A stretch of DNA of 33,265 nucleotides from Alphaproteobacteria bacterium (GTDB taxonomy: Bacteria > Pseudomonadota > Alphaproteobacteria > GCA-2731375). The translations under genes were made by a program, and so were the position numbers. The stretch spans positions 1 through 33,265 of the forward strand of contig JAPKBD010000010.1 of assembly GCA_028824965.1 (NCBI GenBank), given 5' to 3'. Below, piece by piece: positions 4,125-29,883 of the stretch (its first letter is position 1; every line of letters starts with the position of its first letter). The notes below the pieces were generated by a model. The model did no database searches, was not told the DNA's origin, and was given only the letters and a program-made list of their open reading frames with translations.

Positions 4125-4270
4125 GGTTTGATGTCATCGTCATAAAGGATACGTTCGGCAGCGCCATCCAAATCATCAAATTGACCGGAACGCAAGGACC
4201 ATAAGAACGCAGCCAGACCCAGCAGGCCCAAGAAGAGCGCCACCGGGATCAGGACTAATAAGACCGTCAT
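4121..4270 (-). CDS. ccoS: cbb3-type cytochrome oxidase assembly protein CcoS
   Basis: A 49-residue single-span membrane protein. One hydrophobic helix at residues 3-24 is followed by the hallmark 'W-S-L-R-S-G-Q-F-D-D-L' stretch and an acidic tail, which is the CcoS/FixS signature. In the family it is needed for copper and haem insertion into cbb3 oxidase. It overlaps the upstream ccoG-ccoI chimera stop by ATGA (4267-4270) and the downstream GNAT start by ATGA, so translation is coupled on both sides. The gene is intact even though other parts of the locus are damaged. Confidence 0.93.
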   Translation of the reverse strand: MTVLLVLIPVALFLGLLGLAAFLWSLRSGQFDDLDGAAERILYDDDIKP

Positions 4271-6522
4271 GGCAACCGGCCTAAATGTAAACGCAGGGCA
4301 TTCAGGGTCACCAATAATGACGATGACGACATGGCAATAGCAGCGATAAGCGGTGTGACGAACCCGGCCAATGCCAAAGGCACGGCGGCCAAATTATAGA
4401 ACAACGCCAGTGAAAATTTTTGCAGAATTAGACGCCGCACCTGTCGCGCCAAGGTCAACGTGGTCGCAACTGGTGCCAGACCCTCCCCCTGAAAGACGAA
4501 ATCCGCCGCCGCTTGCGCCACATCGGCGGCCCGCGCAGGGGATAGGGATGCGTGCGCCGCCGCTAATGCTGGGGCATCGTTCATGCCATCGCCGATCATT
4601 GCCACCTTGCGCCCCGCCGCCGCCAAACCCTGCAAATGCGCCACCTTTTCATCCGGACGGCAATCTGCCCGCCAGCTGGAAATATTCAACGCCTGAGCCA
4701 CAGGCCCAACCACGGCAGCACGATCACCGGAAACAATTTCAATATGCCAGCCCTGCTTTTGCAAATTCCCGATAACCTCAACCGCATCGGCCTTGATCTG
4801 ATCGCGCAGGGCGAAACGGATCGGCGCGCGGCCGGGCTGAGCGAACCACAATTCGCTGTTGCCGTCTTCTACATCTGCCGCATCCGCTGCACCAACGCCG
4901 CACCAGGTGCGATTACCGAGGCGCTGGCCGTCAAATTCCAGGCCCATGCCGGGGGTCTCCTGCACCGCCAATTGCGCCGATACGGTACCGGCGGCACGCA
5001 CCACGGCCTGACACACAGGGTGACGGCTGCCGGCTGCCAGGCTGGCGGCTAGTGCCAGAGCCTCTGTCGAAATTTCATCGCCGTTCACCAACTCCGGCCG
5101 GCCATATGTCAAGGTGCCGGTCTTATCAAACACCAAGGTGTCGACTTGGGCCAGACGCTCAAAGCCATCGCCCGACTTAACCAGAACACCCCGCCCCATG
5201 GCCAAGCCCGAAGCGACGACCTGGACGACAGGTACAGCCAATCCCAGGGCGCAGGGGCAGGTGATGATCAACACCGCGACGGCGATCAACAACGACGGCT
5301 GCCAGGCAAGACCACCCAGCAACCACCACCCCAGAAAACCCGACAGAGCCAACAAATGCACCGCCGGGGCATAAATTTGTGCGGCGCGATCCGCCAGACG
5401 CACATAGGCCGCCTTGGTTTGTTCGGCCACAGCAGTCAGGCGGACAATTTCGGCCAGCAGGGTATCGTCGCCCGCAGCAGCGACCGTGACCTCCAAGGGC
5501 GAAGAAAGGTTCATGGTATTGTAGCCGATCAAACTGCGCGGCTTGCCGATCTTGTCCATGACACCGTTGCAGGCATCGACACAGAGCGCACACGAGATAC
5601 ATTCCAGCTGCATGCCGTTACGAATATCGATCCCCATGGGGCAGACCACGACGCATTGATTACAGCTGATGCAATCGCCCAGGCCCTCACGTTTACCACC
5701 CCCCACTGCTCCATGGCCTCTAGGCTCGCCGCGCTGATTTTGGCAGGAGACGATCAGCGAGTCTTCATCGATCATGGCGGATTGAATACGCGGCCACGGG
5801 CACATGTAGGTACAGACCTGTTCCCGCGCGAAACCGCCCAGGATGTATGTGGTGGCGGTCAACACGGCGACGGTGACATAGGCGATCTCATCAGCCCGCA
5901 ACGTCACCAGATCAATAAACAAGGTCGGCGCGTCGGCGAAATAAAACACCCACGCACCGCCCGTCAGCACGGCGATAGCCAGCCAGACACTATGTTTGGC
6001 GGTACGTTTGGCCAGCTTGTTTAATGTCCACGGTCCCTTGTCCAGGCGCATACGGGCGTTACGATCACCTTCGACGAAGCGTTCAACAACCAGGAACAGA
6101 TCAACCCAAACCGTCTGCGGGCAGGCATAACCGCACCAAACCCGTCCCGCGACAGCCGTAAGCAGGAACAATGCCAGGGCAGCAATAATTAAAATGCCCG
6201 TGATGTAATAGACTTCCTGCGGCCAAATTTCGATGAAGAAGAAATAGAACCGCCGGCCCGGGATATCGATCAGAACAGCCTGATCCGGGGCACCGGGCCC
6301 GCGGTCCCAGCGCAACCACGGCGTCCAGTAATAGATGACCAAGGCCACGGTCATGGTGGCCCATTTCACATTACGGAAAAAGCCAAAGACGCGTTGGGGA
6401 AAAATCTTCTCCCGTTTCTTATACAGCGCGCCCGGCTCTCTGGTGTTCAGAGCCTTAACGTCGACCATCTCGACGGACGCTATCCTATCTGCCGGTTCGG
6501 GGATGGGTGATGCCGTCGTCAT
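4267..6522 (-). CDS. Chimeric CcoG-CcoI protein (ferredoxin-like accessory protein fused to Cu P-type ATPase remnant)
   Basis: A 751-residue open frame joining two normally separate genes. Residues 1-338 are CcoG/FixG/RdxA: membrane helices, WCGYACPQTVW near 130, CTYMCPW near 238, and two Cys clusters (CISCNQCVVVCP at 284 and CISCALCVDAC at 308) for 4Fe-4S centres. At about residue 339 the sequence switches to CcoI/FixI, a CPx copper ATPase: TCPCALGL, the phosphorylation site FDKTGTLT and the hinge GDGMNDAPAL are present. Missing are the C-terminal domain of CcoG, all of CcoH, and the N-terminal metal-binding domain, early helices and actuator domain of CcoI. Copper transport should therefore fail. 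The joint near 5502 keeps the reading frame. Either a real deletion fusion or an assembly collapse. Confidence 0.88.
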   Translation of the reverse strand: MTTASPIPEPADRIASVEMVDVKALNTREPGALYKKREKIFPQRVFGFFRNVKWATMTVALVIYYWTPWLRWDRGPGAPDQAVLIDIPGRRFYFFFIEIWPQEVYYITGILIIAALALFLLTAVAGRVWCGYACPQTVWVDLFLVVERFVEGDRNARMRLDKGPWTLNKLAKRTAKHSVWLAIAVLTGGAWVFYFADAPTLFIDLVTLRADEIAYVTVAVLTATTYILGGFAREQVCTYMCPWPRIQSAMIDEDSLIVSCQNQRGEPRGHGAVGGGKREGLGDCISCNQCVVVCPMGIDIRNGMQLECISCALCVDACNGVMDKIGKPRSLIGYNTMNLSSPLEVTVAAAGDDTLLAEIVRLTAVAEQTKAAYVRLADRAAQIYAPAVHLLALSGFLGWWLLGGLAWQPSLLIAVAVLIITCPCALGLAVPVVQVVASGLAMGRGVLVKSGDGFERLAQVDTLVFDKTGTLTYGRPELVNGDEISTEALALAASLAAGSRHPVCQAVVRAAGTVSAQLAVQETPGMGLEFDGQRLGNRTWCGVGAADAADVEDGNSELWFAQPGRAPIRFALRDQIKADAVEVIGNLQKQGWHIEIVSGDRAAVVGPVAQALNISSWRADCRPDEKVAHLQGLAAAGRKVAMIGDGMNDAPALAAAHASLSPARAADVAQAAADFVFQGEGLAPVATTLTLARQVRRLILQKFSLALFYNLAAVPLALAGFVTPLIAAIAMSSSSLLVTLNALRLHLGRLP

Positions 6523-27191: not shown

Positions 27192-27446
27192 ATGCCCCTG
27201 AACATCAAAGACGAACAAACCCACGCGATGGCGAAAGAACTCGCCAGCCTCACCGGCGAAACCCTGACGAAGGCGGTTAAGCACGCAATTCAGGATAAAA
27301 TCACGCACCTAAACAATGCTCATGATAAAGAACATATCGCCGATCAACTTGAGCAAATTGCCCTATATTGCGCAGGCTTACCAAGGCGCAGTAATAATAC
27401 ACCGGATGAAATTATTGGCTATGACGACCGTGGCCTGCCGAAATGA
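27192..27446 (+). CDS. vapB: VapB-type antitoxin (Rv0623-like)
   Basis: An 84-residue antitoxin of the Rv0623-like group. The N-terminal half (PLNIKDEQTHAMAKELASL...GETLTKAVKHAI) is a ribbon-helix-helix type DNA-binding region; the C-terminal half is polar and would wrap the toxin. ggagg lies 8 bases before ATG. It overlaps the toxin start by ATGA (27443-27446). It should repress its own promoter through the palindrome just upstream and neutralise the partner toxin. Confidence 0.9.
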   Translation: MPLNIKDEQTHAMAKELASLTGETLTKAVKHAIQDKITHLNNAHDKEHIADQLEQIALYCAGLPRRSNNTPDEIIGYDDRGLPK

Positions 27447-27850
27447 TCGTTGTCGATACATCAGCGATTGTCGCCATTCTCTACGATGAGCCGGAACGGC
27501 TTCAGTTCACGGATATAATCTTGTCGGCGTCTGCCGCAAAAATGAGCGTCGCAAGCCTGCTTGAAGCTCGAATTGTTTTACATTTCGACGCCGGCCAAGA
27601 CGCCATCATGGCGTTGGATTCACTTCTTCTCAAAAGCCGTATTGAATTGCTGGAAGTCTCGCCACAAATGGCTGATATCGCATTCACAGCTTATTGCCAA
27701 TACGGCAAAGGTACAGGTAGTTCGGCAAAATTGAACTACGGCGATTGCTTTGCCTATGCGTTAGCCAAGCATTTGAATTTACCGCTCCTGTTCAAAGGCA
27801 ACGACTTTTCCCAAACTGATCTTGTTGCAGCAGTCGATATATTCGGCTGA
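27443..27850 (+). CDS. vapC: VapC-type PIN-domain ribonuclease toxin
   Basis: A 135-residue PIN-domain toxin, a metal-dependent RNase. The acidic active-site residues are visible: D5 in VVDTSAI, E41 in 'LLEARIV', D101 in 'NYGDCFAYALA' and D121 in 'KGNDF'. In characterised VapC proteins the targets are tRNA or rRNA; the target here is unknown. The length is normal and the reading frame is intact, so the pair is probably functional. It lies between pheT and the selenoprotein module, a position compatible with horizontal arrival. Confidence 0.93.
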   Translation: MIVVDTSAIVAILYDEPERLQFTDIILSASAAKMSVASLLEARIVLHFDAGQDAIMALDSLLLKSRIELLEVSPQMADIAFTAYCQYGKGTGSSAKLNYGDCFAYALAKHLNLPLLFKGNDFSQTDLVAAVDIFG

Positions 27851-27928: not shown

Positions 27929-29362
27929 ATGAGTGTTATTGCAAATGGCTTGGTAGCCGTGGTCAAGCAGGATTGCGAAACCTGCGTCATGATCGAACCT
28001 ATTCTGGCGCAACTGGCAGCGGATGGCATTTCTGTCTACAGCCAGGATAATCCGGATTTTCCGGCCACAGTACCCGGTGTGCTGGATGACCGGGCGTTGG
28101 AGACCTCCTTCAACCTGGATATCGAAACAGTCCCAACCTTGATCCGTATGACGGACGGGAAGGAAGCCGGGCGCGTGGTCGGCTGGGTACGCGATGAATG
28201 GCGGGATTTCACCGCCATCGCAGATTTGGGTGAGGACCTTCCGGCTTTCCGCCCTGGTTGCGGCTCTAAAAGCGTTGAACCGGGTATTGCGGAGGAGCTG
28301 GCGGTGCGCTTTGGCGATACCCCCATCGTCTCCCGCCGCATTGAAGTCGCACCGTTGGAAGACGAGATTGAGGCCTGCTTTGACCGGGGCTGGAGCGACG
28401 GCCTGCCCGTGGTTCCGCCCACGCCAACACGGGTTTATCGTATGTTGCAGGGCACCACACGGGCGCCTGACGAAGTGATCGGCATCATCCCCCCGGATTT
28501 GTCACCTTGCACGGTGGAAAAGGTTGCCATCAACGCGGTCATGGCAGGCTGCAAGCCGGAATATATGCCCGTTGTTTTGGCTGCTGTAGAAGCTGCCTTG
28601 ATCGAAGAATTCTGCATGCATGGTCTGTTGTGCACGACCATGTTCGCCGGCCCCATGGTTGTCGTCAACGGCCCCATGGCGCGCAAGATCGGCATGAACG
28701 CGCGGGAGAATGCCCTGGGTCAGGGCAATCGCGCCAATGCGACCATCGGTCGGGCGCTGCAATTGATCATTCGCAATGTGGGTGGTGGCAAACCAGGCGG
28801 CATCGACCGGGCCTGCCTGGGCAATCCGGGCAAATACACCTTTTGTTTTGCCGAGGACGAGGAAGGCTCGAACTGGGAGTCGCTCTCGGTCGAACGTGGC
28901 TTCGCGCCCGACGCCTCCACCGTGACACTTTTTGCAGCTGATGGCGTGCAGGCAATCTCGGATCAGAAATCACGCAAGCCTGAGAGCCTGGCCCGCACTT
29001 TCGCGGCCTGTTTGCGTATCGTCGATCATCCAAAATACGTCATGGCGGCGGATGCCTTTCTGGTCGTTTCACCAGAGCATGAACGGACTTTCATCAATGC
29101 CGGCTGGACCAAGGCGCGGCTGAAGGAAGAATTGGACGAATTGTTAATGATCCCCGGATCAGAACTGGTCGTCGGTGCAGGCGGTATAGACGAAGGCATC
29201 CCCCTGGACCTGGCTGATAAAACCCTACCCAAGTTCCGCCCCGGCGGCCTGAACATCGTTCGGGCTGGCGGCGGGGCGGGTATGTTTTCCGCTGTCATCG
29301 GCGGCTGGGCCGCTGGGGGCGAAAAAGGCTCCATCCCTGTAACCAAGGAGATAACTCTATGA
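27929..29362 (+). CDS. Thioredoxin-fold protein with C-terminal UGSC-associated domain
   Basis: A 477-residue protein. Residues 1-105 form a thioredoxin-like domain: CETC at 16-19 and a cis-proline in 'ETVPTLIRM'. The remaining ~350 residues form a domain of unknown function, opening with DRGWSDGLPVVPPTPTRV (about 152-170), with 'GNPGKYTFCFAEDE' and a glycine-rich C-terminal stretch ending shortly before KEITL. I recall this type as a neighbour of UGSC-motif proteins; this is from memory, not a search. Its stop overlaps the start of the selenoprotein gene (ATGA at 29359-29362), so the two likely act together. A thioredoxin domain reducing the partner's selenenyl group is a plausible inference. 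Reaction unknown. Confidence 0.8.
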   Translation: MSVIANGLVAVVKQDCETCVMIEPILAQLAADGISVYSQDNPDFPATVPGVLDDRALETSFNLDIETVPTLIRMTDGKEAGRVVGWVRDEWRDFTAIADLGEDLPAFRPGCGSKSVEPGIAEELAVRFGDTPIVSRRIEVAPLEDEIEACFDRGWSDGLPVVPPTPTRVYRMLQGTTRAPDEVIGIIPPDLSPCTVEKVAINAVMAGCKPEYMPVVLAAVEAALIEEFCMHGLLCTTMFAGPMVVVNGPMARKIGMNARENALGQGNRANATIGRALQLIIRNVGGGKPGGIDRACLGNPGKYTFCFAEDEEGSNWESLSVERGFAPDASTVTLFAADGVQAISDQKSRKPESLARTFAACLRIVDHPKYVMAADAFLVVSPEHERTFINAGWTKARLKEELDELLMIPGSELVVGAGGIDEGIPLDLADKTLPKFRPGGLNIVRAGGGAGMFSAVIGGWAAGGEKGSIPVTKEITL

Positions 29363-29883
29363 ATGACACCATCGTCATGCTCGACCCCACGTCAGAGCAG
29401 ACCCCGGCGCAAAGGCAGTTGTTGCCGCGCCCGGAAAAACTGGAAGGGCTGACCGTCGGCCTTCTGGATATTTCAAAACCACGGGGAAACATCTTCCTCG
29501 ACCAACTGGACGCGCTGTTGAGCGACAAGGGCATCGCCGTCAAACGCTATACCAAGCCAACCTTTACCCGCGTCGCACCGGTCGATCTGAAACAACAGAT
29601 CGCCTCGGAAGTTGATGTGGTTGTTGAAGGCCTGGCCGATTGAGGCTCGTGTACCTCGTGCTGTATGCATGATATCACGGATCTTGAAGGTCGCGGCATT
29701 CCCGGTGTGGGCGTCGCCTCCACCGAATTCACCGAAGCAGCGGCAGCTCAAGCCATCTCCCTAGGCTTCGATGCGCCCATGGTTTTCGTCCAGCATCCGA
29801 TCCAGGATCGCAACGACGATGAAATGCGCGCCCTGGCCGAAGCAGCCTATGACGAAATCGTCGCACGGGTCTCGCAAAGCTAA
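29359..29883 (+). CDS. UGSC-family selenoprotein (in-frame TGA read as selenocysteine)
   Basis: A 174-residue protein if TGA at 29641-29643 (codon 95) is read as selenocysteine. The frame is otherwise open on both sides: 94 codons before and 79 after, ending at TAA 29881-29883. The residues around it read GLAD-U-GSCTSCCMHD, matching the U-G-S-C motif that names this redox family, in which some members have Cys instead. A SECIS-like hairpin follows (29656-29680). An aaggag lies 9 bases before ATG, inside the upstream thioredoxin-fold gene. The biochemical role is unknown; the U-x-x-C motif suggests a thiol/selenol redox reaction. A stop-split pseudogene is the alternative. Confidence 0.85.
29656..29680 (+). 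promoter_or_regulatory. Candidate bacterial SECIS element
   Basis: The hairpin has a lower stem cgtg/cacg (29657-29660 with 29676-29679, plus an outer T-G pair), a two-base bulge ct on the 5' side, an upper stem gtat/atat (29663-29666 with 29672-29675, one G-T pair) and a five-base loop gcatg. The loop starts 24 bases after the TGA and begins with G. Distance, loop size and leading G fit the known bacterial SECIS pattern recognised by SelB. Folded by eye only. Confidence 0.6.

Follow-up and report, generated by a model that had tools for sequence, protein, structure and literature searches.

A UGSC-family selenoprotein gene and its overlapping partner gene in an alphaproteobacterial contig: recoding signs and a candidate two-protein reductase

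Introduction

When an open reading frame (ORF) meets a TGA codon and continues beyond it in the same frame, it has to be asked whether the codon is a stop or is read as selenocysteine (Sec), and in the second case what the longer protein may do. This question is raised by a gene at 29359-29883 on the forward strand of contig JAPKBD010000010.1 (Alphaproteobacteria bacterium, assembly GCA_028824965.1), of which positions 1 to 33,265 were analysed as one stretch of 33,265 nucleotides, here called the window. A preliminary description, made from the letters of the DNA alone, had proposed a UGSC-family selenoprotein hidden behind an in-frame TGA. The analysis described here bears out that identification and supplies what the earlier reading, which was incomplete and not wrong, had lacked: an overlapping upstream partner gene, five UGSC paralogues in the same genome, and a probable remote kinship with GrdB and PrdB.

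The UGSC family was in print by 2008, a survey table of that year giving 255 Sec and 21 Cys forms (PMC2398784); it is listed under reference 60 of PMC13188914 and is held in curated profile libraries, so the window gene adds to a known family. The word hidden therefore overstated the novelty of the protein.

Reading of the in-frame UGA as selenocysteine

The frame runs from an ATG at 29359 through the TGA at 29641-29643 and 79 further sense codons to a TAA at 29881-29883, an arrangement that had been proposed earlier and was verified in the sequence. The TGA stands, as claimed, at the first position of the family motif, with UGSC at residues 95-98 of the read-through product. The expected splitting by a gene caller was likewise seen, in that the ORF list holds a first ORF of 94 residues and a second of 72 residues starts from the first ATG after the TGA (residue 103 of 174).

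The read-through product matches Pfam PF24696 (UGSC) with an E-value of 7.9e-45 and 153.5 bits (cut-off 25) and NCBIfam NF041046 (UGSC_fam) with 155.6 bits (cut-off 125), and on this profile homology the window gene is confirmed as encoding a UGSC-family selenoprotein. The halves before and after Sec each match both profiles separately, falling under the NCBIfam cut-off when taken alone, and homologues thus align on both sides of the TGA. Because an open continuation of at least 79 codons also follows 12 of the 52 TGA-ended open frames of at least 90 codons in the window, openness of the frame past the TGA is weak evidence, and it is the homology, as judged by these profiles, that settles the reality of the read-through gene. 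Across 81 aligned UGSC copies, with Sec read as Cys, U95, G96 and C98 are 100% conserved and C101 and C102 vary. The clustered cysteines (GSCTSCC) had been suggested as a redox centre; within this cluster C98 alone is invariant, along with U95 and G96.

The source assembly (4.44 Mb, 505 contigs, 93.9% complete) contains all four components of the selenocysteine machinery that the preliminary description had said should be sought: selA and selB are adjacent on contig C54, the tRNA-Sec (selC; anticodon tca) is on C34 and selD is on C379. The selD frame of this genome (C379:5849-6775; L149) has an in-frame TGA of its own, so SelD is likely also a selenoprotein. Six UGSC loci are present in the genome, each with one TGA at the motif. 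When 387 genomes of this class were surveyed, 42 of them held UGSC matches, 118 in all and up to eight per genome; 112 of the matches contain one TGA and six contain none. selA scored over its cut-off in 66 of the 387 genomes. All 38 genomes with a UGA-type UGSC are among these 66, and none of the 321 genomes without selA over its cut-off has a UGA-type UGSC (Fisher test, 5e-35), although such survey p-values overstate the evidence because related genomes are not independent; four genomes have UGSC matches and no UGA copy, one of them having selA. Homologues with Cys at the Sec position were also found, at 36 loci in actinomycetes, haloarchaea, Methanobacteriaceae bins, Binatia, Myxococcales and Proteobacteria.

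Bacterial selenocysteine insertion sequence (SECIS) elements follow a rule on the distance from the UGA and on a G in the loop, and a SECIS-like hairpin of the window lies just 3' of the UGA with a G near the start of its loop; an Rfam scan of the window returned a tRNA only. On its own, the window hairpin is mildly unusual in stability (z -1.96 over 50 nucleotides and -1.01 over 66). Comparison was made over 96 distinct copies, 59 UGA-type and 37 Cys-type. In the register of the window's own minimum-energy fold, at least five of six pairs form in 49 of 59 UGA copies versus 17 of 37 Cys copies, and the remaining ten UGA copies belong to the C95 type described below, with the register shifted by one base. 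When either of two registers is accepted the counts become 59/59 versus 18/37, the former being partly post hoc, since the C95-type copies had already been seen when the second register (15-20 with 27-32) was brought in. Stability against codon-preserving shuffles has a mean z of -1.42 in UGA copies versus -0.19 in Cys copies (p 1.9e-7). Where the loop encodes serine, all 26 UGA copies use AGT and none of the 17 Cys copies does; where it encodes cysteine, TGT is used by 22 of 23 UGA copies and by none of 7 Cys copies, a contrast to which codon usage may add because the Cys copies come largely from other lineages. For covariation, 47 distinct UGA copies were tested in the first register (nine distinct C95-type copies omitted); 95.4% of cells pair, nine two-sided changes occur, and the paired share and covariation score were reached by none of 500 shuffles. 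In the same stem of 26 of the 36 distinct Cys copies (ten C95-type copies omitted), pairing and covariation did not go beyond shuffles. These recoding signs are computational observations, and on them it is almost certain that the window gene decodes TGA 29641 as selenocysteine.

Table 1. Positions of the selenoprotein gene, its partner gene and their parts in the window
Feature	Position	Strand	Basis
UGSC-family selenoprotein gene, 174 residues, Sec at residue 95	29359..29883	+	profile matches; AAGGAG ribosome-binding-like stretch at 29345-29350
In-frame TGA read as selenocysteine, UGSC motif	29641..29643	+	same position, one TGA, in all six genomic UGSC copies
SECIS-like hairpin UCGUGC-UGUAU-GCAUGA, loop 19-23 nucleotides past the UGA	29656..29672	+	RNA folding, conservation, covariation
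Partner gene, 477 residues, unnamed family; stop overlaps UGSC start (ATGA, 29359-29362)	27929..29362	+	ORF list, homologue pairing
Partner N-terminal thioredoxin-like domain; CETC, VPTL, PGCGS tail motif	27929..28345	+	motifs, Foldseek
Partner core domain, about 330 residues; DGLP, VMAGC, NGP, RANATIGR motifs	28343..29359	+	no accepted known family or fold

The partner gene and its pairing with UGSC

The upstream gene whose stop overlaps the UGSC start (Table 1) is here called the partner. In the source genome eight copies of the partner core are present, all at the six UGSC loci; two of these loci carry two copies each, and on contigs C153 and C95 UGSC and a partner copy form one reading frame. 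A same-strand partner was seen in 96 of 100 UGSC locus rows, some of which are partial re-fetches of own-genome copies, and the core lies within about 2 kb of UGSC at all 36 Cys-type loci. Of 121 partner matches in the class survey, 115 lie at most 4 kb from a UGSC match, all 41 genomes with a partner also have UGSC, and the single UGSC-only genome has a marginal match (E-value 8.6e-4). Since the partner search as a rule scored five candidates per genome, a missing partner row, as for 19 of the 118 UGSC matches, does not in every case mean that the partner is absent. The 98 distinct partners divide into 29 fused to UGSC, 37 with no long extension and 32 that are preceded by an open frame of at least 90 codons, 22 of these 32 being counted as thioredoxin-like. 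With this pairing observed computationally across the loci, UGSC and the partner very probably form a genomic partnership.

The N-terminus of the window partner carries CETC and VPTL, which we take to be the thioredoxin-type CxxC and cis-Pro-type motifs, and thioredoxins top its Foldseek list (probability 1.00, best E-value 1.1e-3); a CxxC, a cis-Pro-type motif and a structural match are thus found together in this thioredoxin-like domain. At C95, and likewise in one relative that was examined (L126), the partners are followed by a pyridine-nucleotide-disulfide oxidoreductase.

A second UGSC subfamily, the C95 type (L006, L120-L128), was also noted, with the motif [UC]G[SAT]CTPAV, fusion to a partner and, in some, a second partner copy following. 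The ten C95-type loci score about 44-51 bits versus the NCBIfam cut-off of 125, so this subfamily escapes the NCBIfam model. For annotation it matters that 83 of the 118 class matches fall below that cut-off, the genome search scoring UGA copies slightly lower (148.2 versus 155.6 bits for the window copy), and that an ORF listing under translation table 11 splits UGA copies.

Predicted structures and conserved residues

A structure model was made from the natural fusion on C153 (551 residues, 123-row alignment), with a predicted local distance difference test score (pLDDT) of 93.8 and a predicted template modelling score (pTM) of 0.92. In its UGSC domain strand and helix alternate five times, and Sec95 stands just ahead of helix 96-111, which comes after strand 87-93. 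In fusion numbering, P8 is invariant over 80 rows and F124, like U95, G96 and C98, over 81 rows; in the partner (68 rows) D233-G-L-P, N278, V280-M-A-G-C284, G324, G374 and G529 are among the most conserved.

In Foldseek the whole C153 fusion reached an E-value of at most 0.001 in three of 1,511 matches, two of them to chains of a glycoside hydrolase and the third to a kinetochore chain. The best 50 of the 1,511 include flavodoxin-type flavoproteins (azoreductases, a flavodiiron protein, a flavodoxin-like domain), GTPases, receptors and others, the aligned part of the model not being stated, and no chain titled thioredoxin is among these best 50. The strand/helix order of thioredoxin differs from a five-fold strand-helix alternation. 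A thioredoxin fold for UGSC itself is thus not supported by the predicted strand/helix order, nor by the matches listed for the whole fusion. We read the modelled UGSC fold as Rossmann/flavodoxin-like, contrary to the thioredoxin-like fold suggested for the family in PMC2398784. By sequence, UGSC had no match in the PDB at E-values up to 10.

The partner core has no accepted match in Pfam, NCBIfam or the PDB, the PDB search by sequence giving one chance-level match (a nucleoside hydrolase, E-value 0.37). A model of the window partner (57 rows, pLDDT 92.2, pTM 0.87) gave 629 Foldseek matches, none with an E-value of at most 0.001. Class I-type fumarate hydratases were considered as its fold and rejected, 302-354 columns being aligned but with TM-scores of 0.18-0.20.

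Kinship with GrdB and PrdB

When 54 UGSC members were compared with known families at E-values up to 1, the families that came next after UGSC were GrdB (29 members), GrdF (20), TIGR01918 (11), PrdB (10) and GrdH (8). The best E-value among the matches to GrdB-type families was 5e-5, TIGR01917 reached 1.3e-4 at best (29 of 54 members), and any other non-UGSC family was met in at most three of the 54. The source genome also holds four genes that match PF07355, three of them over the cut-off (L039-L042, on contigs C397, C364, C291 and C157). Each frame reads on past an in-frame TGA to give U-P-x-C, and all four genes thus likely encode selenoproteins as well; towards its end the L039 frame encounters four additional TGAs ahead of a TAA. 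UGSC and these PrdB-like proteins have identical spacings from U to Cys (+3), Glu (+15) and Gly (+18).

The window protein misses the TIGR01917 cut-off by far (14.6 versus 602.2 bits). A profile alignment (hhalign) of the partner with the PrdB-like set was negative, and the candidate that the partner is a relative of GrdE/PrdA was set aside for want of a Pfam match. With scores so far under the family cut-offs, and with no subunit of GrdE/PrdA type met in a search that had no positive control, the link is one of kinship and not of membership, and UGSC and GrdB/PrdB are probably remote homologues.

Neighbouring genes and other features of the window

The genes around UGSC loci were scanned for 108 of 114 neighbouring ORFs. 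The neighbours include a phosphonate-binding-like protein on C153, of a family matched by four of the 108, and a dimethylformamidase-like protein on C378; the literature gave no match joining dimethylformamidase with a selenoprotein. AMP-binding ligases occur at two C95-type Cys loci, a dipeptide-type transporter, named by eye from the sequence, lies upstream of C95, and GMC oxidoreductases, an amidohydrolase and transporter permeases accompany some copies.

Just upstream of the window partner gene, 27192-27850 (+) encodes an Rv0623-like antitoxin-type regulator and a PIN-domain protein (a VapBC-type pair). Elsewhere in the window, 4267-6522 (-) is a 751-residue frame in which a CcoG/FixG-like N-terminus (Fer4_18) runs straight into the rear portion of a P-type ATPase, with E1-E2 ATPase from profile position 73 and then HAD. 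It looks as if two fixGHI-type genes had been fused minus their inner ends, either by a real deletion-fusion or by a fault of assembly.

Proposed working and alternative explanations

Several pieces match those of glycine and proline reductase: UGSC has Sec-x-x-Cys, a second protein regularly accompanies it, a thioredoxin-like domain is fused to that protein at the window locus, and the paralogues have different neighbours. A GrdB-like working is proposed. SelB and tRNA-Sec would decode UGA 29641 by means of the hairpin just downstream and yield the 174-residue UGSC protein, which would be one subunit of a two-protein enzyme, the product of the overlapping upstream gene being the other. The partner core may hold or shape the substrate site, and the selenolate, predicted to lie at a helix start after a long strand, may attack a small organic substrate, with reductive cleavage following by analogy with GrdB/PrdB. 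The oxidised Sec95-Cys98 pair would then be reduced again, at the window locus by the fused CETC thioredoxin-like domain of the partner, and each paralogue may act on a different substrate. Taken as a whole, recoding together with a thiol-driven reductase of two proteins, the proposal is tentative, and we put its chances somewhat short of even. With a near-constant partner that can carry a thioredoxin-like domain, what had been an 'unknown redox protein' becomes a candidate enzyme complex, open to purification and assay. In its broadest and more speculative form, which we would sooner doubt than assert, the proposal would make UGSC and partner a class of selenoenzymes, built from two subunits, that has gone unrecognised in free-living and probably aerobic bacteria and has Cys versions among the archaea. 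Such a class would be remotely related to protein B of the glycine and proline reductases, would bring a subunit for substrate binding with a fold that has no PDB relative found here, would have thioredoxin built in for some lineages, and would count up to eight paralogues per genome for different substrates.

Several results weigh against this proposal. The partner N-terminus has no Foldseek match with an E-value of at most 0.001 and its Pfam scores are under the cut-off; moreover, the thioredoxin-like domain was counted in only 22 of the 98 distinct partners (many loci are clipped, and the 22 include L079, L081 and L082, added by hand since their loci are clipped before the CxxC), so it is to be seen as one route of electron supply and not as a rule of the family. 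The hhalign comparison of UGSC with the PrdB-like proteins aligns the Sec positions over 81 columns (E-value 0.0013) with a probability of only 18.7, the window protein reaches 0.012 against the GrdB/PrdB families, and PF07355 does not match it at E-values up to 1. PF09338 (GrdE/PrdA) is not matched by the partner core and was not found in the genome, in a search without a positive control. The operon neighbours differ between loci: no family is met in more than five of the 108, and they name no single substrate. Four of the 100 locus rows lack a partner, one being the window's own copy, whose locus is clipped, and six of the 121 partner matches lie away from UGSC, in G065 (two), G163, G054 and G363 (two). 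In these genomes some UGSC copies lack a partner row, and the distant partner genes may be split loci, contig breaks or limits of the search.

The alternatives differ in how much of the proposal they would leave standing. If the TGA were a true stop, the frame would be a pseudogene, the product of a sequencing error or a short protein, and the 12 of 52 comparable frames that are likewise open downstream would fit this; with homology on both sides, a TGA in 112 of 118 class matches, the association with selA and the covariation of the SECIS-like stem all opposed to it, this explanation is scarcely credible, and a pseudogene or chance open frame was rejected on the homology, the selA association and the covariation. 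A more substantial rival, already the assumption of an early survey of the family, would have UGSC act as a general thiol oxidoreductase on disulfides, peroxides or sulfoxides through a thioredoxin-like Sec-x-x-Cys site, with the partner as scaffold or target. The UxxC motif with U95 and C98 invariant and the thioredoxin-like domain fused to the window partner agree with such a role, but the model does not have the strand/helix order of thioredoxin, the best 50 of the 1,511 matches include none, the next-nearest families are GrdB, GrdF and PrdB, and a large, conserved and regular partner would be unusual for such an enzyme, so that we regard it as rather unlikely.

Selenoproteins with clustered cysteines are placed in selenium, sulfur or metal roles, and UGSC and partner might handle selenium, sulfur or a toxic metal or metalloid and not carbon substrates. 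Some UGSC copies do lie about 3.6-8.4 kb from selA (G289:C14, G105:C19, G076:C73, G328:C446 and G046:C1, of five different families). Against this stand Cys-type UGSC in haloarchaea and actinomycetes and the ligase, GMC oxidoreductase, dimethylformamidase-like, amidohydrolase and permease neighbours of some copies, such operon neighbours pointing to organic substrates, and the idea appears improbable.

Comparison with known systems

With the UGSC family as curated (NF041046/PF24696) the window protein shares the motif, Sec at its first position, Cys-type relatives and scores over both cut-offs, and no difference was found in the UGSC protein itself; the profiles, of 147 and 172 positions, do not cover the partner.

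Next come protein B of glycine, sarcosine and betaine reductase (GrdB/GrdF/GrdH) and PrdB of D-proline reductase, the UxxC of UGSC having the spacing to a Glu (+15) and a Gly (+18) that is seen in the own-genome PrdB-like proteins. GrdB and PrdB are also described as selenoproteins working with a second subunit and a thiol reductant (PMC10298544, PMC13188914), and in the account given in PMC10298544 the proposed role of the selenolate is to cleave a C-N bond in the substrate that the protein-B or Prd pair holds, the Se-C bond then being resolved by a thiol. UGSC differs in being a single domain of about 170 residues that scores far under the cut-offs of these families, and its partner is not GrdE/PrdA-like by Pfam and has no identified pyruvoyl processing site. 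A further comparison is with FarB/FarE, a GrdB-type pair of Cloacibacillus proposed to reduce fluoroacetate (PMC10838667), which is presented as substrate-specific, without pyruvoyl processing and as one of several paralogues for different substrates. FarB and FarE are described there as homologues of GrdB and GrdE, whereas UGSC is at best a remote relative and its partner is unrelated by the tests made.

In the parts of the UGSC selenoprotein literature covered here, no account was found of a partner that constantly accompanies UGSC, or of the kinship with GrdB. The Global Ocean Sampling survey (PMC2398784) offers a precedent in its 'UGSC/Unknown_1' fusion, where UGSC is joined to a conserved unknown domain in aquatic bacteria; pairing across the family and a thioredoxin-like domain are not reported in the sections concerned, and 'Unknown_1' is probably the partner described here.

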